Notes under the pieces: model-generated | What the model saw: only the letters and a program-made list of their open reading frames with translations | What the model was told of the DNA's origin: nothing | Databases searched by the model: none | Assembly (NCBI RefSeq): GCF_005889715.1 | Contig: NZ_VCKW01000003.1 | Span: forward strand, 1-64,000 | DNA: 64,000 nt | Reading direction: 5' to 3' | From: Actinomadura soli | Lineage (GTDB): Bacteria > Actinomycetota > Actinomycetes > Streptosporangiales > Streptosporangiaceae | Position numbers and translations under genes: made by a program | Part shown: positions 2 to 19,923 of the stretch, one piece after another | Numbering within the stretch: position 1 is the first letter of the stretch | How the letters are laid out: the number at the start of each line of letters is the position of its first letter

Positions 2-1510
2 TATGTGGGGCGTGCGGGGTTGACGGGGGAGCGGTTTGTGGCCTGCCCCTTCGGTGCCGGTGAGCGGATGTATCGGACGGGTGACCTGGTGAAGCGGGTT
101 CGGGATGGGCAGTTGGTGTTTGTTGGGCGTGTTGATGAGCAGGTGAAGGTGCGCGGGTTCCGGATCGAGCCGGGTGAGATCGAGGCGGCGTTGCGGGCGC
201 ATCCTCAGGTGGCGCGGGCGGCGGTGGTCGCGCGCGAGGACGTCCCGGGCGACAAGCGCCTGGTGGCTTACGTGGTGCCGGTCGATGATGAGGCAGTGGG
301 GGAGGGGTTGCGGGAGTTCGTGGCCCGCACGCTGCCCGACCATATGGTTCCCGCGGCCGTGGTGGCGTTGCCTGATCTGCCGTTGACCGGTAACGGCAAA
401 CTCGACCGCAAGGCACTCCCCAGCCCCGACTACGCCAATGCGGGAGGCACACGGGAGGACGCCGGACGCAACCCCGCCACGGCGCTGGAGAGCCTCGTCT
501 GCGAGGCGTTCGCCGAGATCCTCGGCGTGCCGGACGTCCGCGTCGACGACGACTTCTTCCAGCTCGGCGGGCACTCCCTGCTGGCCGTCAGGCTCGTCAC
601 GCGGCTGGCGGAGAAGGGGGTGTCCATCTCCGTGCGGGACGTGTTCGGCGCGCCGACCGCCGCCGGGATCATCGGCCGGCTGGGTCTGTCGTCGCTGGCG
701 GACTCCCTGGGCCGGGTGCTGCCGATCCGTGCCGAGGGGGACCGGCCGCCGTTCTTCTTCGTCCATCCGGCCTCCGGTCTGAGCTGGTGCTACCGGCCGC
801 TGGCCCGGTTCGTGCCCGGCGACGTCCCGCTCTACGGGCTGCAGGCCGCCGGGCTCGACGGTGGCGCCGGGATGCCCGGCACGCTCCGCGAGATGGCGGC
901 GGAGTACGTCGCGCAGATCCGCGCGGTGCAGCCCACGGGCCCGTACCACCTGTGCGGCTTCTCGTTCGGCGGCATCCCCGTCCACGAGATCGCCGTCCAG
1001 TTGCGGGCCGCCGGGGAGACCGTCGCCGCACTGGTGATCATGGACGCGTATCCGGACGTCACCGCGGACGTCACCGCGGACGGCGACGGCGACGGCGACA
1101 AGGCCGCGGCAGAATCCGCCCCCGCTCCGGAGCCCGGCGAGGGCGACCTGGAGGCCGCCCTGCGGCGCACGGCGGCGCGGTTCCGCGAGGAGGTGGGGGA
1201 GGTGCTCGGGGGCGTCTCCGACGACGAACTTCTCCTCGTCGCGAAGGTCTTCCGCAACAACGTGCTGCTCAGGCGGAGCCACGAGTTCGGCGTCTTCGAC
1301 GGGGACGTCCTGCTCCTGGTCGCCGGGGAGCGCGAGGGCGACGACCTGCCGGACGGCGAGCTTTGGGAGCCCTACGTGAGCGGAGAGATCTCGGCGGTCG
1401 AGATGCCCTGCGGCCACTCCGACCTGATGCGGCCCGAGATGCTGGGCCGGGCATGGCCGGTGATCGCCGAATGGCTGGAGAGCCGGAGCCGACCGGAGAG
1501 CCGGAGCTGA
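2..1510 (+). CDS. Non-ribosomal peptide synthetase, C-terminal part (A-T-TE), 5'-truncated by window edge
   Basis: End of a peptide synthetase whose reading frame is already open at base 2; only about 502 residues are visible. Numbering from the GTG at base 5, the order is: tail of an adenylation domain (YRTGDL at 23, [19 protein letters not shown] from 40, [10 protein letters not shown] from 130), a carrier domain ([10 protein letters not shown], phosphopantetheine Ser near 191), then a type I thioesterase (GFSFGG, nucleophile Ser near 320; GHSDLM near the end likely holds the catalytic His). The thioesterase follows the carrier directly, with no X or epimerase domain between. The substrate-specifying core of the A domain lies outside the window, so the activated amino acid cannot be read. 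An acidic DVTA/DG repeat follows the thioesterase strand ending LVIMDAYPD. The thioesterase marks this as the terminal module; with the Dpg genes downstream the line probably makes a Dpg-containing peptide (inference). Confidence 0.95.
1477..1507 (+). repeat. 18-bp-period tandem duplication at the NRPS 3' end
   Basis: The 13-mer GGAGAGCCGGAGC occurs at 1477-1489 and again at 1495-1507, eighteen bases apart, encoding the repeated ESRS at the C terminus just before the stop. It looks like a slippage duplication beyond the folded thioesterase. Confidence 0.8.
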
Positions 1511-1537: not shown

Positions 1538-2791
1538 TCAGTGGACGGCGTGTTCCTCGGCGGGGGCGACGACGGGCAGGGCCAGGACGATGGAGAGGCC
1601 CCCGTCCGGGTTGGCCTCGGCACGGACGGTGCCGCCGTGGGCGCGGGCGATGGCCGCGACGATGGACAGGCCGAGCCCGGCGCCGTCGGCCGAGCCCGTC
1701 CGGTCCCGGTGCAGCCTCCGGAACGGCTCGAACAGCCCGTCCACCTGGTCGGGCGGCACCTGCGGGCCGGTGTTGGAGACGAGCAGCCCGGTGCCGGGGT
1801 CCAGTTCGACGAGGACCCGCCCGCCGGGGTGGTTGTGGCGGATCGCGTTCTGCACCAGGTTGGCGACCAGCCGGGTGATCAGCACCTCGTCGCCCGCGAC
1901 GGTGACCGGGCGGGTGGTGGTGGTGGTGACGGTCACGCCGTGGGTCTCGGCGAGCCGCAGATGCTCACCCGCGACCTGCTCGGTGACGGCGGCGAGGTCC
2001 ACCGGGGCCTTGGTGTCGATCTCCTGCTCGCCCTTCGCGAGGGTGAGCAGGCCCTCGATGAGCCGCTCCGACCGGTCCGTGGTGCGCAGCAGCTCGGTCC
2101 GGATCCTCGCCACCTTCGCCGGCGTCGGGTCGGCCAGACCGATCTCGACGGCGGTCCGCTGCACGGCCAGCGGGGTGCGCAGCTCGTGGGAGGCGTTGGC
2201 GACGAAACGGCGCTGGCTGGACATCGCGTTCTCCAGCCGGTCGAGCATGGCGTCGAAGGTGTCGGCGAGGTCGCGGAGCTCGTCCCGCGGACCGGTCAGC
2301 CCGATCCGCTCGTGCAGGGTGGACAGCGACAGCCGGCGGGCGGTGGCGGTGACGTGGTGCAGCGGCCGCAGCAGCCGCCCGGTCAGCCACCAGCACACCA
2401 CGAACGAGAGGACCACGATCAAGGCCATCGCGGCCAGGATGATGATCCGCTGCGTGTTCGCCAGGTCCTGCTGGAGCTCCATCCGCTCGCCGGCCGACAC
2501 CGGCCAGTCCGACGTGGACCCCCCGAGGGGGCTCGGCACCTTCGGGTCGTACGGGACGGCGGAGCAGGGGGCCTCGGGCGGCCGGACGTCGCAGGGCAGG
2601 CCCGCGACCGAGCCGAGGCGGGTGAGTCCGCGCATCTTCTCGTCGAAGACGGCCTCCTGGAGCCGCTGCGCGACGACCAGCACCGCCAGCGAGATCGCGG
2701 TGAACACCCCGCCGTACAGCAGCGTCATCCTGGCCCGCACCGAGCCGCCGAACACCGACGTGACACGCCGCGCGGCGCCGCCGCGGGTCAC
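1538..2791 (-). CDS. Two-component sensor histidine kinase
   Basis: Membrane sensor kinase of about 417 residues. A first membrane helix lies near residues 22-44 and a second near 130-155, enclosing an extracytoplasmic sensor segment of roughly 85 residues. A HAMP linker, a HisKA domain with SHELRTP (phospho-acceptor His about 202) and a HATPase domain (NLVQNAIRHN, SNTGP, GAGLGLSI) follow. The start chosen is the GTG at 2791, which overlaps the stop of the response regulator as GTGA; a longer open frame upstream only shadows that gene. Partner of the adjacent OmpR-type regulator. The pair is divergent from a MacA/MacB-like exporter, so sensing an envelope-active compound and switching on its export is a reasonable inference. 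The gene is convergent with the NRPS gene. Confidence 0.93.
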   Translation of the reverse strand: MTRGGAARRVTSVFGGSVRARMTLLYGGVFTAISLAVLVVAQRLQEAVFDEKMRGLTRLGSVAGLPCDVRPPEAPCSAVPYDPKVPSPLGGSTSDWPVSAGERMELQQDLANTQRIIILAAMALIVVLSFVVCWWLTGRLLRPLHHVTATARRLSLSTLHERIGLTGPRDELRDLADTFDAMLDRLENAMSSQRRFVANASHELRTPLAVQRTAVEIGLADPTPAKVARIRTELLRTTDRSERLIEGLLTLAKGEQEIDTKAPVDLAAVTEQVAGEHLRLAETHGVTVTTTTTRPVTVAGDEVLITRLVANLVQNAIRHNHPGGRVLVELDPGTGLLVSNTGPQVPPDQVDGLFEPFRRLHRDRTGSADGAGLGLSIVAAIARAHGGTVRAEANPDGGLSIVLALPVVAPAEEHAVH

Positions 2792-3441
2792 AGCCGGTAC
2801 CCGCTTCCCGGGACGGTGACGATGACGGGCGGGTCGCCGAGCTTGGACCGCAGCTTGCTCATCGTCACCTTGACGACGGTGGTGAACGGGTCGGTGTGCT
2901 CGTCCCACGCGCGTTCCAGGAGCTCCTCGGTGCTGACGACCGCGCCCCGGGCCCGCATCAGTACCTCCAGCACCGCGTACTCCTTCCGTGACAGCGGCAG
3001 GTACCGGCCGTCGCGGAAGGCCTGCCGGCGGCCGGTGTCCAGGGTGATGCCATCGTGCTCCAGCACCGGCGGCAGCGGCGGCCCGGCGCGCCGGGCGAGC
3101 GTGCGGACCCGCGCGACCAGCTCGTCGAACGCGAACGGTTTCGCCAAGTAGTCGTCGGCGCCCAGGTTCAGGCCCGTGACGCGTTCGTGCACCGCGCCGG
3201 ACGCGGTCAGCATCAGGATCCGCACCGGGGCGCCGCGCTGGGCCAGCTCGCGGCAGATCTCGTCGCCGTGCACGCGCGGCATGTCCCGATCCAGCACGAG
3301 GACGTCGTAGTCGTTGACGGCGAGGTGCTCCAGCGCGTCCGCGCCGTCGTAGGCCACGTCGACCGCCATCGCCTGCTCCCGGAGCCCCTCGGCCACCAGG
3401 TCGGCGAGGACGCGCTCATCTTCGGCCACCAGTATCCGCAT
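2788..3441 (-). CDS. OmpR/PhoB-family response regulator
   Basis: Response regulator of 217 residues. The receiver domain carries the acidic pair at residues 8-9, the phospho-acceptor D51 in VLVLDRDMP, T79 and K101 (YLAKPF). A winged-helix DNA-binding domain fills roughly residues 125-215. It is the first gene of a two-gene operon with the kinase (4-base overlap). Its start faces the start of the export operon across about 120 bases, a layout usual for a regulator that controls both directions. VanR-like roles cannot be decided from sequence; no van resistance genes are in the window. Confidence 0.95.
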   Translation of the reverse strand: MRILVAEDERVLADLVAEGLREQAMAVDVAYDGADALEHLAVNDYDVLVLDRDMPRVHGDEICRELAQRGAPVRILMLTASGAVHERVTGLNLGADDYLAKPFAFDELVARVRTLARRAGPPLPPVLEHDGITLDTGRRQAFRDGRYLPLSRKEYAVLEVLMRARGAVVSTEELLERAWDEHTDPFTTVVKVTMSKLRSKLGDPPVIVTVPGSGYRL

Positions 3442-7049: not shown

Positions 7050-11003
<3,954 letters not shown>

Positions 11004-11109: not shown

Positions 11110-11145
11110 TTCACCGTCCGGGCCTTCACCGTCCGGGCTTCACCG
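11110..11145 (+). repeat. Tandem repeat between dpgD and the SARP gene
   Basis: TTCACCGTCCGGGC occurs at 11110-11123 and 11125-11138, then a partial TTCACCG at 11139. The last copy runs into the 3' end of the SARP gene. It may be a slippage duplication. Confidence 0.7.
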
Positions 11146-11952
11146 CATCAGCGGGGCCTGGTGCCGGTCGTGCGCGGCCGCGTGCCACGCGCCGAACCGG
11201 GACGCGATGATCTCTTCCGGGGCCTGCTGCTCCAAAACGGACCGGTGCAATTCCTGTAACTCCTGGCCCGGTTCTATGCCCAGATCGTCGCGCAGGCGCT
11301 GCCGTGCCTGGGCGAACTGCTGCAGCGCCTCCGCCTGCCGGCCCGACGAATAGAGGGAGAGCATCAGCAGGGCCCTGAGCGACTCGTGGAAGGGGTCGGC
11401 GGAGACGACCTTCTGCAATTCGGGAATGATCTGCCGGTGGTTGCCCAGCCTGATCTCCGCGTAGAACAGCTCCTCGTAGGCGGCGATCCGCTCCGCCTCA
11501 AGGAGGCGGGCCTCCTGCCGGACGAGCTCACCCGGGACCGAGGAGAGGGCCCTTCCCCGCCAGAGCGCCAGCGCCTTCCGGAACCGCGGGACCGACTCGT
11601 CCAGCCGCCCGCGGGCCGCGTTCGCGTGGGCCTCGGCGGCCCGCTGCCGGAAATGCCACAGGTCGATCTCCTCCGGGCGGACCTCCAGCGCGTAGCAGTC
11701 ATTCGAGGTCCTGATCTCGACCGCCAGCGGCCGGAGCACCTGCCGCAACCGATAGATGTAGGACTGGATCGTGGTCTGCGCGGTCGCCGGCGGACGGTCG
11801 TCCCAGACGAACCGGACAAGACGGCTGATCGAAACGCCATGGTTGGCATCGAGGAGAAGCGCAGCGAGGATCGCGCGCTGCTTGGGAGCGGTCAGGGCGA
11901 CCCGCTTTTCGGCCCCCCTGATCTCCAGACCGCCTAACATGAGGAAGAGCAT
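11140..11952 (-). CDS. SARP-family transcriptional activator
   Basis: Small Streptomyces-antibiotic-regulatory-protein of about 270 residues: an OmpR-like winged-helix domain (residues 1-95, APKQRAILAALLLDANHGVS) followed by a bacterial transcriptional activation (BTAD) domain (about 100-250, ELFYAEIRLGNHRQIIPEL). The ATG at 11952 starts MLFLMLGGLEIRG, where the family normally begins; GGAGG lies about 13 bases upstream. The open frame extends upstream to 12216 but the added ~88 residues do not look like SARP sequence. It contains two TTA codons (11935-11937, codon 6, and 11257-11259), so expression probably depends on a UUA-reading tRNA. It is divergent from the first StrR-type gene across 585 bases. 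Likely a cluster-situated activator. Confidence 0.93.
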   Translation of the reverse strand: MLFLMLGGLEIRGAEKRVALTAPKQRAILAALLLDANHGVSISRLVRFVWDDRPPATAQTTIQSYIYRLRQVLRPLAVEIRTSNDCYALEVRPEEIDLWHFRQRAAEAHANAARGRLDESVPRFRKALALWRGRALSSVPGELVRQEARLLEAERIAAYEELFYAEIRLGNHRQIIPELQKVVSADPFHESLRALLMLSLYSSGRQAEALQQFAQARQRLRDDLGIEPGQELQELHRSVLEQQAPEEIIASRFGAWHAAAHDRHQAPLMR

Positions 11953-12537
11953 GCGTATTCTCACGCCTCCGAACCGCCGGCCTGACCGGCACTGAATCAA
12001 GATCAAAGGTGCGGGGCCTTCAATACGGACGCCAGAAACTCCCGGGTTCCCCGGATGCTTCTCATTCTCGAATGTGATTCGACAGGGCCCTTTTGGCAGA
12101 AGCTGCCAAGAAGAACCGGTCTGTCCTGTGCGTCCCCAGGTTAGCGAGCGTTGTACCAGGTTAGGACGGGCGCGGCCACAACCGGACAGCGCCCCCGGGA
12201 ACGCGGTGATTTCCAATCGCCGCCTCGGACATGACCACTTCCATCCGGCGGCCCTGCGCGGACGGCCTGGCCACGGCTACGTTGCGTGATCCAGAAATCA
12301 CCTATCACACGCAGATCAAGAAAAGTGATCAGGGTGTGGCTTTCAGTGATCACCGCTCGTCATGGTGGCGGGCTAATGGCGCGCCAATGGAGCCGAACTG
12401 GCGGTGTGACCCCCGTCGCTTGTCGTCGCCGCTGCACCGTGTGATTCTTGCGCCGGAGAGACCCGGAGAAGGGGGCCGCCGGCAAGGCCGGCTGAACGGG
12501 GGACGCGCCCGGCGGGGCGCGCTTAGGGGGCAGAACG
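11953..12537. promoter_or_regulatory. 585-bp divergent control region between SARP and first StrR-type gene
   Basis: No supported gene. Visible elements: a hairpin TTGGCAG-AAG-CTGCCAA at 12093-12109; a direct repeat CCAGGTTAG at 12136-12144 and 12156-12164 (20-base period); and a cluster of GTGATC/GATCAC elements from 12286 to 12353 (GTGATC at 12286, GTGATCA at 12325, palindromic GTGATCAC at 12346). SARPs bind spaced direct repeats, so CCAGGTTAG is a candidate. The GTGATC cluster does not match the StrR operator pattern and may bind another regulator. Confidence 0.5.
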
Positions 12538-13797
12538 ATGGACGACGTACCGCTGTCTCGACGTCCGGCAGGCGGCCCGCGGACCGCGGTCGAGGCGGCA
12601 CGGACCGTGATCGAGGGAGCCAGGAGCACGGGGGACGGCGACCTGGAGCTACCGGTCGAGTTACTGGCGGCGGGCGACTCGCCGCGGTCCGCCGGCGTCG
12701 ACCCGCACCATGCCGCCGCGCTCGCCGCGGCGCCGGGACCGCTGCCGCCGATCATCGTGCACTGGCCGACGCTGCGGGTGATCGACGGCATGCACCGGCT
12801 GGCGGCCGCGCGGGCGCGCGGCGACGACCTGATACCCGTGCGGCTGTTCGAGGGCGGCGAGAGCGACGCCTTCGTGCTCGCGGTCGGCGAGAACGCCGCC
12901 CGCGGCCTGCCGCTGACCCTGGCGGACCGCAAGCGCGCCGCGGCCCGGATCATCCGCTCCTTCCCGCGCTGGTCGGCCCGGAGGGTGGCCGCCGTGACCG
13001 GCCTCTCCGCGGGCACGGTCACCGAGATCCGCAAGGACGAACTCGGGGACGGGCCGGACGGCGACGCCCGCATCGGCCGGGACGGCAGGGTCCGGCCCGT
13101 CGACAAGGCCGAGGGCCGCGACATCGCGCGCCGGCTCATCGTCGAGGACCCCACGCTCTCGCTGCGGCAGATCGCCCGTGTCGCCGGCATCTCCCCGGAG
13201 ACGGTCCGGACGCTGAAGCACAGCCTCCTGAACGGCCCGTCCGCACCGGCCGACCAGGCCCCGGAACCTGCCGCGGAACCGGCCGCGGGAGAGACCCGGA
13301 CGACGGCGGCGACGGCGGTGCCGGGCCGGGATGCCCTCATGGAACGCCTGAAGGCCGACCCTGCGCTCCGGTTCAGGGAGTCCGGGCGCGACCTGCTCCG
13401 GCTGCTGAGCCTCACCTCGCTCAGCCCGGCGGACTGGGAGCGGCTCGTGGCGGCCGTGCCGTCCGGCCATCGCGCCGCGATCGTCCAGCTCGCCCGGGAC
13501 TGCGCGGCCGGCTGGACGGAGTTCGCCGCCCTGGCCACCGGCATCGCCCTTCCCCGTGACACCGGCCTGCCCGGCGGCGGCACCGTGGGCGCACCGGCTC
13601 CCGAAGCGGTGGGCGACGCGGGCCCGGCGGGCGGCGTCCAAGTGCGGGGATTGGACAGTTGGACACGCGAGCGGCGTCAACCGGCGGGATCGACGAGAGG
13701 TGAGCGGGGCCATGGCTCACGACCGGCTGCCGTTGTCCGTCGACGAGCGGCCGGTGCTGGTCCCGATCGCGTCGCTGTCCCTGGCGGGATCACCTAG
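12538..13797 (+). CDS. StrR/Bbr-family ParB-fold transcriptional activator, first copy
   Basis: Pathway-specific activator of the StrR/NovG/Bbr/Tei15*/Dbv4 group. A ParB/sulfiredoxin-like domain (LPPIIVHWPTLRVIDGMHRL, about residues 75-95; AFVLAVGENAARGLPL) is followed by helix-turn-helix segments (SARRVAAVTGLSAGTVTEIR; LRQIARVAGISPETVRTL). ATG 12538 has AGGGGG seven bases upstream. A TTA codon is at 12661-12663 (codon 42). The two paralogues end just after the WTEFA/WAEFA-like segment, but this one runs about 80 residues further, overlapping the next gene by 86 bases in another frame. That tail may be natural or the result of a one-base shift near the C4 run at 13551-13554, which would bring a TGA at 13557 into frame. 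Confidence 0.9.
   Translation: MDDVPLSRRPAGGPRTAVEAARTVIEGARSTGDGDLELPVELLAAGDSPRSAGVDPHHAAALAAAPGPLPPIIVHWPTLRVIDGMHRLAAARARGDDLIPVRLFEGGESDAFVLAVGENAARGLPLTLADRKRAAARIIRSFPRWSARRVAAVTGLSAGTVTEIRKDELGDGPDGDARIGRDGRVRPVDKAEGRDIARRLIVEDPTLSLRQIARVAGISPETVRTLKHSLLNGPSAPADQAPEPAAEPAAGETRTTAATAVPGRDALMERLKADPALRFRESGRDLLRLLSLTSLSPADWERLVAAVPSGHRAAIVQLARDCAAGWTEFAALATGIALPRDTGLPGGGTVGAPAPEAVGDAGPAGGVQVRGLDSWTRERRQPAGSTRGERGHGSRPAAVVRRRAAGAGPDRVAVPGGIT
13636..13664. promoter_or_regulatory. StrR/Bbr-type operator GTCCAA-N17-TTGGAC
   Basis: Perfect inverted half-sites GTCCAA (13636-13641) and TTGGAC (13659-13664) separated by exactly 17 bases. This agrees with the binding pattern I recall for Bbr of the balhimycin cluster (GTCCAa-N17-TtGGAC). 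It lies inside the 3' tail of the first StrR-type gene, 48 bases before the start of the second, so it most likely controls the second gene and those after it. Confidence 0.8.
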
Positions 13798-14623
13798 AAG
13801 CCGCGCCGAGGACGCCGAGCACCTGCGCGCCCTGACCGCGACGACGGCGAAACTGCCGCCGATCATCGTCCACCGGCCCACGATGCGGGTGATCGACGGG
13901 CGGCACCGGGTGCTGGCGGCCCGGCGGCGCGGCGAGGAGCACATCGAGGCCCGCTTCTTCCACGGTGACGACGATCACGCGTTCGTGCTCGCGGTGAGCG
14001 CCAACCTGGTGCACGGCCTTCCGCTGTCGTTCGCCGAGCGCAGAGCCGCGGCCGCCCGCATCCTGGGCACGCATCCGCGGTGGTCGGATCGGGTCATCGC
14101 CTCGCTGACCGGCATCTCCGCGCGGACGGTGGCGGACGTGCGCGGCGGCCTCGGGGCCTCGGGCGCGGGCCGGGCCCGGGTCGGCAGCGACGGGCGGAGC
14201 CGCCCGGTGGACGGCGCCGAGGGCCGCCGAGCCGCCGCCGAGATCATGGAACGGGAGCCTGGCCTGTCACTGCGGCAGGTGGCGCGGCGCGCGGGCATCT
14301 CGCACGAGACGGCACGCGACGTCCGCAAGCGGATGCTGCGCAGGGAGAGCCCCGTGCCGGAGCGGCTTCCGGGCGACCCGGTGGCGGCCGTCACGCGCCC
14401 CGCCCTGCGGCGGCTCAGGTCGGCGCCCGCGCTGCAGGAGTCGGAGGACGGCCGGGCGCTGCTCAGGCTGCTCCTCGCCCACACCGGCGACGCCGGGCAA
14501 TGGCACCGGCTGACCGGCGGGGTGCCGCCGCACAGGGGCGGCACCGTGGCCGAGCTAGCGCTGGAATGCGCGCGGCTCTGGGCGGAGTTCGCCGATCGCG
14601 TCGAACGCGCGGACGAGGACTGA
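13712..14623 (+). CDS. StrR/Bbr-family ParB-fold transcriptional activator, second copy
   Basis: Paralogue of 303 residues with the same layout: VPIASLSLAGSPRSRAED, ParB-like LPPIIVHRPTMRVIDGRHRV, FVLAVSANLVHGLPLSFAER, two helix-turn-helix segments (SDRVIASLTGISARTVADVR; LRQVARRAGISHETARDVR) and a short C-terminal helical domain ending WAEFADRVERADED. The start is the ATG at 13712 (MAHDRLPL); the open frame begins upstream but the added sequence runs through the operator and resembles nothing in the family. In sequence this copy reads closest to glycopeptide-cluster Bbr proteins. The operator at 13636-13664 sits just upstream. Confidence 0.93.
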   Translation: MAHDRLPLSVDERPVLVPIASLSLAGSPRSRAEDAEHLRALTATTAKLPPIIVHRPTMRVIDGRHRVLAARRRGEEHIEARFFHGDDDHAFVLAVSANLVHGLPLSFAERRAAAARILGTHPRWSDRVIASLTGISARTVADVRGGLGASGAGRARVGSDGRSRPVDGAEGRRAAAEIMEREPGLSLRQVARRAGISHETARDVRKRMLRRESPVPERLPGDPVAAVTRPALRRLRSAPALQESEDGRALLRLLLAHTGDAGQWHRLTGGVPPHRGGTVAELALECARLWAEFADRVERADED

Positions 14624-14669: not shown

Positions 14670-14742
14670 TACCCTCGATCGGATTCGAACCGATACCCTG
14701 ACCATTTTAAGTGGTCCGCCTCTTCCTTTGGGCCACGAGGGC
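14670..14742 (-). tRNA. tRNA gene, anticodon UAA (reads UUA), type I with short variable loop
   Basis: Reverse-strand cloverleaf of 73 bases: acceptor GCCCTCG with CGAGGGT (7 pairs, first G-T), D stem GCC/GGC with a G-G in the loop, perfect 5-pair anticodon stem GACCA/TGGTC, 7-base loop CTTAAAA giving anticodon TAA (complement of 14707-14709), a 5-base variable region AGGGT, a perfect T stem ATCGG/CCGAT with TTCGAAT loop, and discriminator A. CGA follows instead of CCA, so CCA would be added enzymatically. A normal bacterial tRNA-Leu has a long variable arm; this one does not, so its amino-acid identity is uncertain. A TACGAT element six bases before the 5' end could be its -10 box. It lies between the second StrR-type gene and hpgT, opposite in strand to both. 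Confidence 0.85.
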
Positions 14743-14882
14743 GATGCGATCGTAAGCGGCCGCTCACGGAAAAGACGACCCTGGACGCCGTCACAATGTG
14801 GCCCGCCGGACGCCCTTGCTGGACAACGTTCCGCCGTGGAAATTGGAGGGGTTCGTGCCGATAAGCGGGGAGTGAGTGAGCC

Positions 14883-16250
14883 ATGCCCTGGACAGATCAC
14901 GCCGGAACCGCCCCCGGAACCGTCCCCGGAATCGCTTCCGGGCCTGGTGCGCTCGAGCTGTTCCCGGCCATCGCCGATCCGGTCATGGACACGATGAACT
15001 TCCTGAACGAGGTCACCGCGCGGTATCCCGACGCGATCTCGTTCGCCCCCGGCCGTCCCTACGACGGGTTCTTCGACGTCGAGGACATCTTCGGCCACCT
15101 CAGGCGGTATATCGACCACCTCGCGGGGGAGGGGGCCACACCGGCCCGGATCCGCGACGCGCTGTTCCAGTACGGCCCGTCCGCCGGCATGATCCGCGGG
15201 CTCGTCGCCGACGCGCTCCGCCGGGACGAGGGCATCGAGGCGGCGCCGGAGTCGATCGTGGTGACGCTCGGCTGCCAGGAGGCCATGTTCCTGGTGCTGC
15301 GCGCCCTGTTCGCCGGCCCGGACGACGTCCTGCTCGTCTCCACCCCCTGCTACGTGGGGATCACCGGCGCCGCGCGGCTGCTCGGCATCGAGGTGGTGCC
15401 CGTCGAGGAGGGGCCGGAGGGCCTGCCGCCCCACGCCCTCGAAGTGGCGATCAAGGCCCAGACGGCGTCCGGCCGCAGGGTCCGCGCGGTCTACGTGATC
15501 CCCGACCACTCCAACCCGTCCGGCGTCACGATGCCGCTCGCGGCCCGGCGCGAGCTGCTCGACCTGGCCGCGCGGGAGGGCGTCCTGATCCTGGAGGACA
15601 GCCCGTACCGGCTGGTCAGCCCGGGTCCCCAGGAGCCCACGCTGAAGAGCCTCGACCGCCGCCGGACGGTGATCCACCTCGGCTCGTTCTCCAAGACCGT
15701 GCTGCCCGGCGCGCGGGTCGGCTTCGTCGTCGCCGACCAGGAGGTCGTCGACGCGGGCGGGCGGACGGGCCCGCTGGCCGCCCAGCTCGCCAAGATCAAG
15801 AGCATGGTGACGGTGAACACCCCGGCGCTCAGCCAGGCGGTCGTCGCGGGCGCGCTGCTGGCCGGGGGCGGCGGCGTCACCGAGCTGAACCGCGACACGT
15901 CCGCCTACTACGGCAACGCGATGCGGACGACGCTGCGCGAGCTCGGACGGCGGTTCCCGGCGGCGGCCCGCGACCGGCTCGGCGTCGCGTGGAACGAACC
16001 GGACGGCGGCTTCTTCCTCGCCCTCCAGGTGCCGTTCCGCGCGGACAACGCCTGCCTGGCCCGGTCGGCCGAAAGGTTCGGCGTGATCTGGACGCCGATG
16101 TCGTACTTCTATCCGGACGGCGGCGGCGAGCACACGATCAGGCTGTCGACCAGCTACCTCAGCGATGCGGAGATCGCCGAGGGCGTGGCCCGCCTGTCCC
16201 GTTTCGTGGAATCCGAACGTTCGGGAGAGGAGGGGACGCCGACCAGTTAA
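14883..16250 (+). CDS. hpgT: HpgT-type (hydroxy/dihydroxy)phenylglycine aminotransferase
   Basis: PLP-dependent fold-type I aminotransferase of 455 residues. Motifs: NFLNEVTARYPDAISFAPGR near the N terminus, YGPSAGMIRGLVADAL, PDHSNPSGVTMPLAARREL, and SFSKTVLPGARVGF with the Schiff-base lysine at K271. The N-terminal NFLNEVT..DAISFAPG segment is characteristic of the phenylglycine aminotransferases of glycopeptide-type clusters, which make both 4-hydroxyphenylglycine and Dpg. Here it would convert the DpgC product 3,5-dihydroxyphenylglyoxylate to Dpg. Start ATG 14883 follows GGGGAG by about ten bases. The hydroxyphenylglycine genes hmaS and hmo are not in this window. Confidence 0.92.
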   Translation: MPWTDHAGTAPGTVPGIASGPGALELFPAIADPVMDTMNFLNEVTARYPDAISFAPGRPYDGFFDVEDIFGHLRRYIDHLAGEGATPARIRDALFQYGPSAGMIRGLVADALRRDEGIEAAPESIVVTLGCQEAMFLVLRALFAGPDDVLLVSTPCYVGITGAARLLGIEVVPVEEGPEGLPPHALEVAIKAQTASGRRVRAVYVIPDHSNPSGVTMPLAARRELLDLAAREGVLILEDSPYRLVSPGPQEPTLKSLDRRRTVIHLGSFSKTVLPGARVGFVVADQEVVDAGGRTGPLAAQLAKIKSMVTVNTPALSQAVVAGALLAGGGGVTELNRDTSAYYGNAMRTTLRELGRRFPAAARDRLGVAWNEPDGGFFLALQVPFRADNACLARSAERFGVIWTPMSYFYPDGGGEHTIRLSTSYLSDAEIAEGVARLSRFVESERSGEEGTPTS

Positions 16251-16304: not shown

Positions 16305-17438
16305 ATGGAATTGGGGCAATCAGCTGAAAGTCGATTAAGCGTCCTGCACACGGACGCTGTTGCGATGGTTCCGATAGCCGCGCTCACCTACGCCGACAGC
16401 CCGCGCCTGGACGGCGAGCAGCCCGAGCACGTCCAGGTCCTCGCGGGCATGGACAACGAACTCCCGCCGATCCTCGTGCACCGCCAGACGATGACGGTGC
16501 TCGACGGGATGCACCGGCTGCGCGCCGCCGTCCAGAACGGGCGGCGCGAGATCAGCGTGCGGTTCTTCGACGGCAGCCACCAGGACGCCTTCGTCGCCGC
16601 GGTGAAGGCGAACATCGGGCACGGGCTGCCGCTGTCGACGGCCGACCGCGAGGCCGCGACGGTGCGCATCCTGGCCTCGCACCCGCGCTGGTCGGACCGT
16701 TCGATCGCCGAGGTGACGGGCCTGGCGGCCACGACGGTCGCGAGGATCCGGGCCCGGACCAACACCGGCGCCGAGCAGCCGGAGGCGCGGATCGGCAGGG
16801 ACGGACGGGTCCGGCCGATCAACGGCGCCGCCGGCCGCAGGCTCGCCGCGCGGCTGTTCGACGAGCGTCCCGGGGCCTCGCTCCGGGAGATCGCCGAGCA
16901 GGCCGGGATCTCCCCGGCCACGGCACTGGACGTGCGGGAACGGCTGGGTCGTGGCGACGACCCCGTCCCGGACAAGCAGTTGCGCGCCGAGCAGCGCGAC
17001 CGCGCCGCGGCGGGCGGCACGGTCATGCCCGGCGGCACAGCCATGGCGGGCAGCACGGTCATGGCGAACGGCACGGTCATGGCAGACGCTCCGGTCAGGG
17101 CGGGCGGTCCGGTGATGACCGGCGGTCCGGTGATGACCGGTGGTCCCGTCATGACCGGCGGCAAGGGCGCGTTCCGGCGGCACCGCCGGGCACCCGACGC
17201 CGAGCTGGCGCTCCGCAAGCTGCAACGCGACCCGTCCCTGCGTCTCACCGACGCGGGCCGCGGGCTGCTGCGCATGCTGAGCACGCGGTCGCTGCGCGCC
17301 AAGGAGTGGTCCGAGATCCAAGGCGAGATCCCGGCCCACTGCGTCCCGCTGGTCGCCGACCTGGCGCTCAGCTGCGCCGACGAGTGGGCGCGGTTCGCCG
17401 AGGCGCTCAAGACCCGGGCGCGCACCGAACTCGCCTGA
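16305..17438 (+). CDS. StrR/Bbr-family ParB-fold transcriptional activator, third copy
   Basis: Paralogue of 377 residues: VPIAALTYADSPRLDGEQPE, ParB-like LPPILVHRQTMTVLDGMHRL, FVAAVKANIGHGLPLSTADR, helix-turn-helix segments (SDRSIAEVTGLAATTVARIR; LREIAEQAGISPATALDVR) and a conserved C-terminal helical domain ending WARFAEALK. Between the DNA-binding part and the C-terminal domain is a 6-residue repeat array (GGTVM/GGPVMT) of about eight units not present in the other two. A TTA codon is the eleventh codon (16335-16337) if translation starts at 16305; no good ribosome site is seen there, and ATG 16365 would lose it. It follows hpgT by 54 bases and is convergent with htpG. Confidence 0.9.
   Translation: MELGQSAESRLSVLHTDAVAMVPIAALTYADSPRLDGEQPEHVQVLAGMDNELPPILVHRQTMTVLDGMHRLRAAVQNGRREISVRFFDGSHQDAFVAAVKANIGHGLPLSTADREAATVRILASHPRWSDRSIAEVTGLAATTVARIRARTNTGAEQPEARIGRDGRVRPINGAAGRRLAARLFDERPGASLREIAEQAGISPATALDVRERLGRGDDPVPDKQLRAEQRDRAAAGGTVMPGGTAMAGSTVMANGTVMADAPVRAGGPVMTGGPVMTGGPVMTGGKGAFRRHRRAPDAELALRKLQRDPSLRLTDAGRGLLRMLSTRSLRAKEWSEIQGEIPAHCVPLVADLALSCADEWARFAEALKTRARTELA
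17014..17162 (+). repeat. 18-bp coding minisatellite in the third StrR-type gene
   Basis: About eight degenerate 18-base units (core GGCGGTCCGGTGATGACC), each encoding six residues of the type GG-T/P-VM-x. The last three units are almost identical, showing recent expansion. It encodes a flexible Gly/Val/Met linker between DNA-binding and C-terminal domains. Confidence 0.9.
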
Positions 17439-17523: not shown

Positions 17524-19395
17524 CTAGCCGGACGATCCGTCCGTCAGGGACACCAGCAGGTCGTTGAGCCGCGACACGAACGCGCCCGGCTCGTCGATGC
17601 GGGCGCCGCTTGTCAGCACGGCCTGGTCGTAAAGGACGTGCGCCCAGTCGGCCAGGCGCGGGTCGTCCTGGCCGCGGTTCAGCCGCTCCACCAGCGGATG
17701 CCCCGGATTGATCTCCAGGATCGGCTGCGCCGGCAGCCCCGAGCCCCGCAGCCGCCGCGCGACGGTGAAGTCGGTCTCGGCCTCATTGGCGACGATGCAG
17801 GCCGGGGAGGTCGTCAGGCGGCTGGTCACGCGGACGTCCCACGCCTTGCCCTCCAGGTGCGCCTTGAGCTTGCCGAGGAGCGCGGCGTACGCGGAGTCGG
17901 CCTGCTCGGCGGCCTCCTTCTCCGCCTCGTCCGCCATGGCGCCGAAGTCGGGCGGCCCCTGCGCGACGGACTGCAGCTGTTTCCCCTCGTACTGCGCCAG
18001 GCCGGTGACGACGAAGTTGTCGACGGCGTCGTCCAGCAGGAGCACCTCGATGTCCTTCGCGCGGAACGCCTCCAGATGCGGGCTGGCGGCGGCGTCGGAC
18101 AGCCCCGGCGCGAGCAGGTAGTAGATCTTGTCCTGCCCGTCCCTCATCCCGGACACGTAGTCGGCGAGCGACACGCGCGCCTCCCCGCCGGACCGGGTCG
18201 AGGTGAAGCGCAGCAGCCCGGCGATGTCCTCCCGGTGGGCGGGGTCGTCGAACACGCCCTCCTTGAGGACGGCGCCGAACTGCGTCCAGAACTCGGCGTA
18301 CTTCTCCGGCTCGCCGTCCGCCATGTCCTTGAGCAGCCTGAGCAGCTTCTTGACCGCGCTGGCGCGGATGTGGTCGATGGCCTGGCTGCCCTGGAGGATC
18401 TCCCGGGACACGTTCAGCGGAAGGTCGGCCGAGTCGATGATCCCGCGCACGAACCGCAAGTAGCGCGGCAGCAGCCGTCCGCTGTCCTCCAGAATGAACA
18501 CCCGCTGGACGTGCAGCCGAACGCCCTGCCCCGGCTCCGGCGTCCACAGGTCATAGGGCGCCCGGGACGGGACGAACAGCAGCAGCGTGTAGTCGTACCG
18601 CCCCTCGACCTTCGCGTGCAGATGCCCCAGCGGATCGGTGAAGTCGCCGGTGAGCTGCCGGTAGTACTCGTGGTAGTCGCCGTCCTTCAGCTCGCTCTTC
18701 GGACGCGTCCACAGCGCCGACGCCTGGTTGACCGCGCTGTCGTCGTCGCCCACCGTGATGGGCCGGGCGATGTGGTCGGAGTACCGTTTGATGATCGAGC
18801 GGAGCCGGTGCTCGTTCAGCAGCTCGTCCTCGCCGTCCCGCAGATGCAGCACGATCGTCGTGCCCCGCTCCGCGCGCTCGACGTTCTCCAACGAGTACTC
18901 GCCCTTGCCGTCGGACGACCAGCGCACCGCCTCGTCCGCGGGCAGCCCGGCCCTCCGCGTGGTCAGCACCACCCGCTCGGCGACGATGAACGCCGCATAG
19001 AAGCCGACGCCGAACTGCCCGATCAGCGCGGTGTCCCTGCGCTGGTCGCCGGTCAGCGACCGGAGGAACTCGGACGTGCCCGACTTGGCGATCGTCCCGA
19101 TGTTCTCGATCACCTCCGCGCGGCTCATGCCGATCCCGTCGTCGGCCACGGTGATCGTCCCCGCGTCCTTGTCGAAGGAGACCCGGATCCGCGGCTCGCC
19201 CTCGTCCTCGTCCCCGGCCAGTTCCGGACGCGAGAACCGCTCGATCCGCAGCCGGTCGATCGCGTCCGAGGAATTGGAGACGAGCTCGCGCAGGAATATC
19301 TCCTTGTTGCTGTACAGCGAATTGGCCATCAGATCCAGGATCTGCGCCGCCTCCGCCTGAAAGCGAAACGTCTCCTCTTCCGCCTGTAATGACAC
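17524..19395 (-). CDS. htpG: Molecular chaperone HtpG (bacterial Hsp90)
   Basis: ATP-dependent chaperone of 623 residues, the usual length. The N-terminal GHKL ATPase domain shows ELVSNSSDAIDRLR, DDGIGMSRAEVIENIGTIAKSG and GQFGVGFYAAF. The middle domain carries FVRGIIDSADLPLNVSREILQ, and the C-terminal dimerisation domain has NPGHPLVERLN. The GTG at 19395 is preferred: GGAGGGG lies just upstream and the family begins here; the frame runs on to 19527 without Hsp90-like sequence. The third codon is TTA (19387-19389), so TTA codons are not restricted to the biosynthetic genes. Confidence 0.97.
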   Translation of the reverse strand: MSLQAEEETFRFQAEAAQILDLMANSLYSNKEIFLRELVSNSSDAIDRLRIERFSRPELAGDEDEGEPRIRVSFDKDAGTITVADDGIGMSRAEVIENIGTIAKSGTSEFLRSLTGDQRRDTALIGQFGVGFYAAFIVAERVVLTTRRAGLPADEAVRWSSDGKGEYSLENVERAERGTTIVLHLRDGEDELLNEHRLRSIIKRYSDHIARPITVGDDDSAVNQASALWTRPKSELKDGDYHEYYRQLTGDFTDPLGHLHAKVEGRYDYTLLLFVPSRAPYDLWTPEPGQGVRLHVQRVFILEDSGRLLPRYLRFVRGIIDSADLPLNVSREILQGSQAIDHIRASAVKKLLRLLKDMADGEPEKYAEFWTQFGAVLKEGVFDDPAHREDIAGLLRFTSTRSGGEARVSLADYVSGMRDGQDKIYYLLAPGLSDAAASPHLEAFRAKDIEVLLLDDAVDNFVVTGLAQYEGKQLQSVAQGPPDFGAMADEAEKEAAEQADSAYAALLGKLKAHLEGKAWDVRVTSRLTTSPACIVANEAETDFTVARRLRGSGLPAQPILEINPGHPLVERLNRGQDDPRLADWAHVLYDQAVLTSGARIDEPGAFVSRLNDLLVSLTDGSSG

Positions 19396-19923
19396 CTTTT
19401 CCCCTCCCCGTGCACGGCCACCGGACAACCATTCAGGATAGAAATCCCCCACCCAGCGGTCAACCGCAAGCCGCACGGTGACCCGGACCGGCCGCCGTGC
19501 CCGGGGGAGGGGCCAAGCACCGAGCACGACGACCGCTCCAGAAGATCACCGGCGCCCGCCCACGTAACCGCTGCCAGAACGAGCTGCGCGCGAGGCGTCC
19601 AGCCTCTCCCGGAACAAGCTCGCGGCGGCCAGAGCCGCCCCCACAATGGATCGCCAAGGTCAGACCTTCGAGAGGCCGTCCGAGGGCCTCGCCGACGACC
19701 TCGACACCTACGTCCAAGCAGGCGGGATGCTCCACCGCTTGTGGGAGAAGCATGTGGTGGCCCGTAAAGAGGGCCTGGCGCCGAGCGGTTTCCGGCCGCT
19801 GATCGAGGCCGAAAAGGCCACAAGAGAACTTGCCGGATGTCGCCTACGTGGACAGGGGCGGGCGGTTACGGCCAGATGCTCACAGACGTATACGACGTCC
19901 GCCGACTGGCGCGTGACAGCCGG
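19396..19923. other. Gene-poor region upstream of htpG
   Basis: Apart from a weak open frame at 19646-19945, nothing supports a gene. It must hold the htpG promoter close to 19400-19450; I see no CIRCE or HAIR-type heat-shock element I could defend. Confidence 0.5.

Follow-up and report, generated by a model that had tools for sequence, protein, structure and literature searches.

The textbook translational switch in actinomycete antibiotic production is bldA, a single core tRNA that acts through UUA codons. It is a type II tRNA with a core chromosomal gene, and its late accumulation gates development and metabolism. Glycopeptide clusters under StrR-type regulators (Bbr, Dbv4, AoStrR1) are also known, and for Bbr and Dbv4 an operator of the form GTCCAR(N)17TTGGAC has been published (PMC6022936, with a like sequence in PMC7852140; both papers as excerpted). 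The excerpts of this literature mention no tRNA gene in the clusters. Among the matches listed by a search of open-licence literature there was no UUA tRNA inside a biosynthetic cluster and no short-loop tRNA-Leu in Actinobacteria, and prior notice of either is possible.

The DNA considered here, called the window, is a stretch of 64,000 nucleotides from Actinomadura soli. It contains a real, intact tRNA gene for UUA. What is unexpected about the gene is not its short variable loop; it is the location, beside Dpg/Hpg genes, of an extra copy with U33. The reading that we favour, with a probability of roughly 0.6 judged from sequence comparison, is that the gene encodes a functional, co-inherited and cluster-resident UUA decoder which supplements the core tRNA and which is bldA-like and recurrent in Actinomadura Dpg/Hpg clusters.

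The tRNA gene and its surroundings

The tRNA is 73 bases long with the anticodon UAA in the loop CTTAAAA (hence U33), a variable loop of 5 nt and A73; CCA is not encoded in the gene. ARAGORN reports it as tRNA-Leu with anticodon TAA, and it matches Rfam RF00005 at 57.7 bits (E 7.6e-10), not a low score when set against the gathering score of 29. The coordinates, length, loop, anticodon and five-base variable loop had all been read correctly in the first-pass annotation. Neither ARAGORN nor Rfam finds a further tRNA gene in the window.

Comparison of 20 distinct related copies supports the fold. Pairing is present in 99.3% of 400 stem cells and there are two-sided changes at 7 stem pairs; neither value, nor the covariation score, was reached by any of 500 shuffles, and the number of pair types was reached by 12 of the 500. 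The T and anticodon loops of window-type tRNAs are canonical.

The D arm had been thought to resemble that of another isoacceptor class. This is mistaken, as it has the leucine layout: a 3-bp D stem, a 13-22 mismatch, A14, A15, G18G19 and A20a, accompanied by U48 and A73 (the position numbering is our own assignment). A14, A15-U48, G18G19, A20a and A73 are invariant across 21 aligned window-type copies, and they are the set given for leucine identity in E. coli by a review (PMC9976931, in excerpt), which also describes the long variable arm as dispensable for that identity. The acceptor/T branch is 7/5, not the 8/4 or 9/3 of allo-tRNAs. In the host genome a single gene scores above the family cut-off for LeuRS, and it is full-length.

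The gene had been described as lying inside a biosynthetic cluster, between regulatory and biosynthetic genes, and so it does. A StrR-like gene (stop at 14623) is convergent with it, with 47 bp between that stop and the 3′ side of the tRNA; the HpgT-like gene (14883-16250) is divergent from it, on its 5′ side; and Dpg and NRPS genes are around (Table 1). The presence of DpgA and DpgB equivalogs with an NRPS identifies a Dpg-containing NRPS cluster. The start of the 13556-14623 StrR-like ORF is probably the ATG at 13712, judged by eye. DpgC is expected within 8346..11003 and was not called separately. A gene for HtpG (HSP90) recurs next to these clusters (L112, L113, L116, L217), and in L112, L113 and L116 it is close to the tRNA.

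Table 1. Features of the window, with positions counted from its first nucleotide
Feature	Position	Strand	Evidence or remarks
NRPS end: A-domain C terminus, PCP, thioesterase	5..1510	+	Pfam
Sensor kinase + response regulator	1538..3441	-	VanS/VanR-like, below NCBIfam cut-offs
DpgA	7050..8198	+	NCBIfam equivalog NF042429, 648 bits vs cut-off 425; TTA at codon 374 (counted from 0)
DpgB	8192..8872	+	NCBIfam equivalog NF042431, 312 bits vs cut-off 140
ORF with C-terminal enoyl-CoA hydratase (DpgD-like)	8346..11003	+	Pfam ECH_1, residues 630-884
SARP-type regulator (BTAD)	11140..12216	-	two TTA codons
Second StrR-like ORF	12538..13797	+	TTA at codon 41 (counted from 0); ends uncertain
Perfect StrR/Bbr-type operator GTCCAA-N17-TTGGAC	13636..13664	.	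about 1.1 kb from tRNA, upstream of StrR-like gene
StrR-like regulator	13712..14623 (ORF listed from 13556)	+	HTH_23; 45-53% identity to StrR-like stretches of related loci
tRNA-Leu(UAA)	14670..14742	minus, 5′ end 14742	ARAGORN, Rfam, covariation over 20 distinct related copies
-10-like box TACGAT	14749..14754	-	starts 12 nt upstream of tRNA 5′ end
HpgT-like aminotransferase	14883..16250	+	Pfam Aminotran_1_2; 55-71% identity to 80 actinomycete loci
StrR-like regulator	16305..17438	+	TTA at codon 10 (counted from 0), common to window and G006
HtpG (HSP90)	17524..19527	-	one TTA

Leucine tRNAs of the class, the genus and the host

That a short variable loop is odd in a leucine tRNA with this anticodon was the premise of the initial interest in the gene, and the premise is wrong: short-loop tRNA-Leu(UAA) is the commoner form in the class. 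In an even draw of 128 class genomes (at least 90% complete, 11 of them from the host's family, copies typed via match length) it occurs in 88, the U33 and C33 patterns combined. The U33 short-loop form is present in 73 (G042 doubtful) and a form of type II length in 34; the 21 genomes that remain divide into 15 with the short-loop C33 form and 6 with neither form. ARAGORN, run on 60 loci from this survey, returned UAA tRNAs at 40, 31 short and 9 long. A single pattern applied to 59 relatives found a short-loop UAA copy in all 36 genus members, host included, and in all four order members. The short-loop architecture of the window tRNA is therefore ordinary.

The host assembly (9.04 Mb in 622 contigs, 93.9% complete) has 62 Rfam tRNA matches at E 0.001 or better, and ARAGORN, run on 43 stretches containing such matches and on the stretch with the window tRNA, gave 61 genes. 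By ARAGORN the short-loop tRNA-Leu genes are those for UAA (three copies), CAA and CAG, and the type II ones those for UAG, GAG and CAG. A separate canonical, type II bldA had been suggested as something to look for; none is found among the 62 matches and 61 genes of this assembly, and the core UUA tRNA is itself short-loop. The UAA tRNAs of two single-contig Actinomadura genomes (G006, G021) are likewise all short-loop by ARAGORN.

U33 is near-universal in tRNAs. In Actinomadura the core tRNA-Leu(UAA) has the loop CCTAAAA, hence C33, and this was seen in 34 of the 36 genus genomes examined; in G011 and G017 a core-like copy was recognised from base 34 onward only. The surroundings of the core gene are alignable over most of 16 kb among five genomes. 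The host's core copy (G000:C254:4323-4395, L044) is 73% identical to the window tRNA. The same identity, 73%, separates the window tRNA from a copy in Nonomuraea gerenzanensis which is flanked by peptide deformylase and Bax-inhibitor genes; none of 21 window proteins tried had a match at that locus, and so it is taken as a core gene.

Several further tRNA observations were made in passing. The C33 form is also carried by every one of the ten sampled f19 genomes and, within the host's family, by five genomes from other genera; ARAGORN was run on 12 of these 15 genomes. A short-loop CAA tRNA-Leu, as in the host, is present in G026. Two single-contig Actinomadura genomes (L231, L236) have tandem short-loop tRNA-Leu genes (CAG, GAG) next to an odd tRNA-Tyr, and the host's short-loop CAG copy is at G000:C4:11300-11373 (L043). 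The host also has two unusual and partly low-scoring tRNA arrays, with His, Arg, Met and Ser at G000:C382:3261-3578 (L007) and with Ser, Ala and Trp at G000:C310:19022-19321 (L011), which are perhaps of mobile-element origin.

Occurrence with Dpg and Hpg genes, nearby signals and UUA codons

The copy with U33 (CTTAAAA) is accessory, being in 31 of 65 Actinomadura genomes as 32 genes. These fall into two sequence subgroups, 21 of window type and 11 of another type which begins GCCTCC, has the loop stems CTC/GAG and has different surroundings. In addition to its core copy the host carries one gene of each type. The other-type loci are L096, L118, L119, L125-L127 and L220-L224, some of them next to a gene for a large SARP or an aromatic amino acid lyase. 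Where neighbours were tested (L096, L118, L119, L126 and L222), a SARP, a cold-shock protein, an LPMO and an aromatic amino acid lyase are among them.

A match to dpgA (E <= 1e-60) is found in 16 of the 65 genomes and a window-type tRNA in 21, with both in 14. Window-type tRNA is thus in 14/16 genomes with dpgA versus 7/49 without (Fisher p 1.7e-7, which ignores relatedness); with both U33 subgroups pooled the comparison is 14/16 versus 17/49 (p 3.4e-4, again ignoring relatedness). In the two dpgA genomes that lack the tRNA, G076 and G083, the contig with dpgA is about 4 kb long. The concern that relatives without the cluster might commonly have the gene as a chromosomal tRNA is borne out in part: the core short-loop tRNA is common, but the window type has the distribution just described.

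A search for the same tRNA in other Dpg clusters had been suggested, and in 12 of the 65 genomes it is found no more than 10 kb from dpgA or hpgT (G000, G006, G007, G011, G017, G018, G020, G022, G027, G033, G082, G087). Gene order varies among the linked loci, and in G022, G082 and G087 the tRNA has the opposite orientation relative to hpgT. In G027, G031 and G070 the tRNA and dpgA are on separate contigs, and in G027 the tRNA adjoins hpgT. Similarity of the tRNA follows that of the enzymes, with Mantel r 0.67 against DpgA identity and 0.75 against HpgT identity (11 loci each, permutation p 0.0002). The nearest relative of the window tRNA, at 92% identity, is that of G006, in the same cluster context. 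A set of hpgT loci from named genomes (80 kept of 111 found), with fetched flanks of up to 10 kb and in some cases shorter, has a tRNA-Leu(UAA) at 2 of 7 Actinomadura loci and at none of 73 outside the genus.

Seven genomes have the window-type tRNA and no dpgA (G003, G016, G019, G024, G029, G059, G069). The copy in G016 adjoins a halogenase, a cold-shock gene and HtpG, that in G024 adjoins a StrR-like gene with a perfect operator, and that in G003 has a type III PKS-like gene about 1.1 kb away; the flanks of the G019, G029 and G059 copies, as far as tested, show no biosynthetic hallmark. The copy in G069 (L211) is in a cluster with PKS (KS-AT-KR-DH), P450 and HpaB genes, and four flanking genes have TTA.

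A TANNNT box within 25 nt upstream is a feature of 20 of the 21 window-type copies, against 11% in shuffles, and of none of the 11 other-type copies. A scan for sigma-70 type promoters over a stretch of the window gave no match. Perfect GTCCAA-N-TTGGAC sites in the 21 window-type loci number 16 at spacings 16 and 17 and two at spacing 9, with none at any other spacing from 5 to 29, and perfect StrR/Bbr operators are absent from the 11 loci of the other subgroup. Eight of the 16 are within 230 bp of the tRNA start, in eight of the 21 loci (L110, L114, L115, L121, L123, L124, L213, L214), and in three of these (L114, L115, L124) the operator is upstream of the tRNA, with a spacer of 16 in L114 and L124. 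In the genomes G018 and G033 the operator begins 90 bp upstream. The perfect operator nearest to the window tRNA itself is 1.1 kb away. Operator placement in some loci, and in those only, suggests that StrR may control the tRNA.

The first-pass annotation counted four cluster genes with UUA codons; UUA is indeed present and the count is, if anything, low. By our own choice of ORFs, 7 of 24 in positions 1-29500 of the window contain TTA, versus 1 of 27 in 29500-64000, and some TTA calls may fall in wrongly chosen start regions. At 11 linked loci 30 of 125 genes have TTA; the control values are 10/137 at loci of the other subgroup and 2/56 around the core tRNA. Window-type loci give 9/97 in genomes without dpgA and 2/29 where dpgA is elsewhere, and 73 hpgT loci of other genera give 105/930. 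Actinomadura Dpg/Hpg loci that have no linked tRNA (ten stretches, two pairs of which overlap, some in genomes with the tRNA elsewhere) give 18/98. As these unlinked loci are similarly UUA-rich, the richness is a property of such clusters in the genus. UUA enrichment was accordingly rejected as proof of a tie between tRNA and cluster, with unlinked clusters nearly as rich and the tRNA loci that lack dpgA not rich.

Good local alignments cover 48 TTA sites, and there Leu is the aligned residue in 64% and Ala, Val or Ile in about 7% each; for other Leu codons the same comparison gives 78-85% Leu. The TTA of the window dpgA is aligned with Ile in 13 of 14 homologues.

Readings of the locus and comparison with described systems

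The sequences show a cloverleaf that is intact and covarying and that has the E. coli leucine identity set, a -10-like box ahead of it, and repeated occurrence in Dpg/Hpg NRP clusters of Actinomadura. A UUA-reading leucine tRNA which is intact and recurrent in this location argues that the cluster carries its own bldA-like decoder and that the two are inherited together. Of the roles first proposed, a pathway-dedicated UUA decoder is the best fit, given the 12 of 65 genomes with the tRNA at most 10 kb from dpgA or hpgT. A tight tie is opposed by the seven genomes that have it and lack dpgA, by the 73 hpgT loci outside Actinomadura at which it was not found, and by the similar UUA richness of Actinomadura clusters that have no linked tRNA. 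In operation, the host's single full-length LeuRS would charge the tRNA, which would be transcribed from its own promoter. With the cluster on, more UUA-reading tRNA would be available, and UUA-containing mRNAs for regulators and biosynthetic enzymes (StrR, SARP, DpgA and others) would then be translated well; the core UUA tRNA, with its C33, may decode more weakly. A more elaborate version, which we put forward tentatively and regard as unlikely as it stands, is that StrR-type activators switch on the private UUA tRNA that is needed to translate UUA in those same activators and in DpgA. The resulting feed-forward loop would be mobile with the cluster and would bypass the weak C33 core decoder.

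The alternative that survives best, possible if not probable, is that the ordinary short-loop tRNA-Leu(UAA) has here a spare and functional paralogue which is not specially tied to the cluster, and that tRNA and cluster are linked through shared descent of one neighbourhood. The commonness of such tRNAs in the class, the occurrence of the window type in 7 of 49 genomes without dpgA, the location elsewhere of the second U33 subgroup (11 loci) and a UUA content not clearly above that of Actinomadura clusters without a linked tRNA all accord with it. Against it, linkage persists through reordered genes and an orientation flip at 64-96% protein identity, half of the 16 perfect operators are as close to the tRNA start as described above, and at least one further biosynthetic locus, the PKS cluster of G069, has such a tRNA among four TTA genes.

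tRNA-dependent enzymes, which accept aminoacyl groups from tRNA, occur in other pathways. A non-translational part for the window tRNA, such as that of aminoacyl donor to a pathway enzyme of this sort, would suit its location within the cluster. We nevertheless think it improbable and unnecessary: there is covariation in the stems, the decoding loops have their canonical form, the surrounding genes use UUA, and no Fem/Mur-type ligase or cyclodipeptide synthase family is among 70 proteins tested with Pfam.

Integrative elements often attach at tRNA genes, and the window tRNA could have been the attB for one that delivered the cluster. This is very improbable: the last 20 nt of the gene, with 3 mismatches allowed, do not recur in the window or in any of 31 other tRNA loci, a similar 20-base probe likewise has no second match in the window, and Pfam shows no integrase among 70 proteins from the window and from a part of the flanking genes; with neither a 3′-end repeat nor an integrase the reading was rejected. 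Least credible is a mischarged tRNA that inserts a residue other than Leu at UUA, for which the short variable loop, unlike that of a textbook tRNA-Leu, and the Ile columns at the dpgA TTA might speak, and which is contradicted by complete leucine identity elements (the E. coli set as excerpted from PMC9976931) and by the predominance of Leu in the UUA columns.

Short tRNA-Leu genes of phages (Streptomyces phages and Bacillus phage P59) resemble the window tRNA in being full-length matches of 73-75 bases annotated as tRNA-Leu, but they are only 71-75% identical over the full length and the G006 copy is much closer. Phage origin is unsupported, the phage copies being about as distant as the host core and Nonomuraea copies. 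With the core short-loop tRNA-Leu(UAA) of Actinomycetes the window tRNA shares length class, D arm and leucine elements; the Actinomadura core copy differs in its C33 and conserved surroundings, the window copy having U33 and being accessory.

The cluster is like the StrR-regulated glycopeptide clusters (Bbr, Dbv4, AoStrR1) in its DpgA/DpgB, HpgT-like and StrR-like genes and in operators of the GTCCAR-N17-TTGGAC form (excerpts of PMC6022936 and PMC7852140), and unlike them in its tRNA, given the 73 hpgT loci outside Actinomadura. If the favoured reading is true, a cluster-resident UUA tRNA is a new arrangement in which a cluster supplies the decoder for its own rare codon. Such a cluster may bring its own means of translation, a spare UUA-reading leucine tRNA amid UUA-containing genes, and this opens to test whether the tRNA limits product yield, whether it bears on the silence of moved clusters, and what the role of the conserved core C33 is.

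The comparison with Streptomyces bldA is the closest. Matches of type II length for UAA are in all ten genomes of f20, which we take to be the Streptomyces family, in the class survey. bldA is such a type II core gene, whereas the window tRNA has no long arm, its variable loop being 5 nt, and is an extra copy inside a cluster. Like bldA, the window tRNA has the anticodon UAA and is accompanied by UUA codons in cluster-situated regulators, and it is plausible that it too serves as a translational gate.
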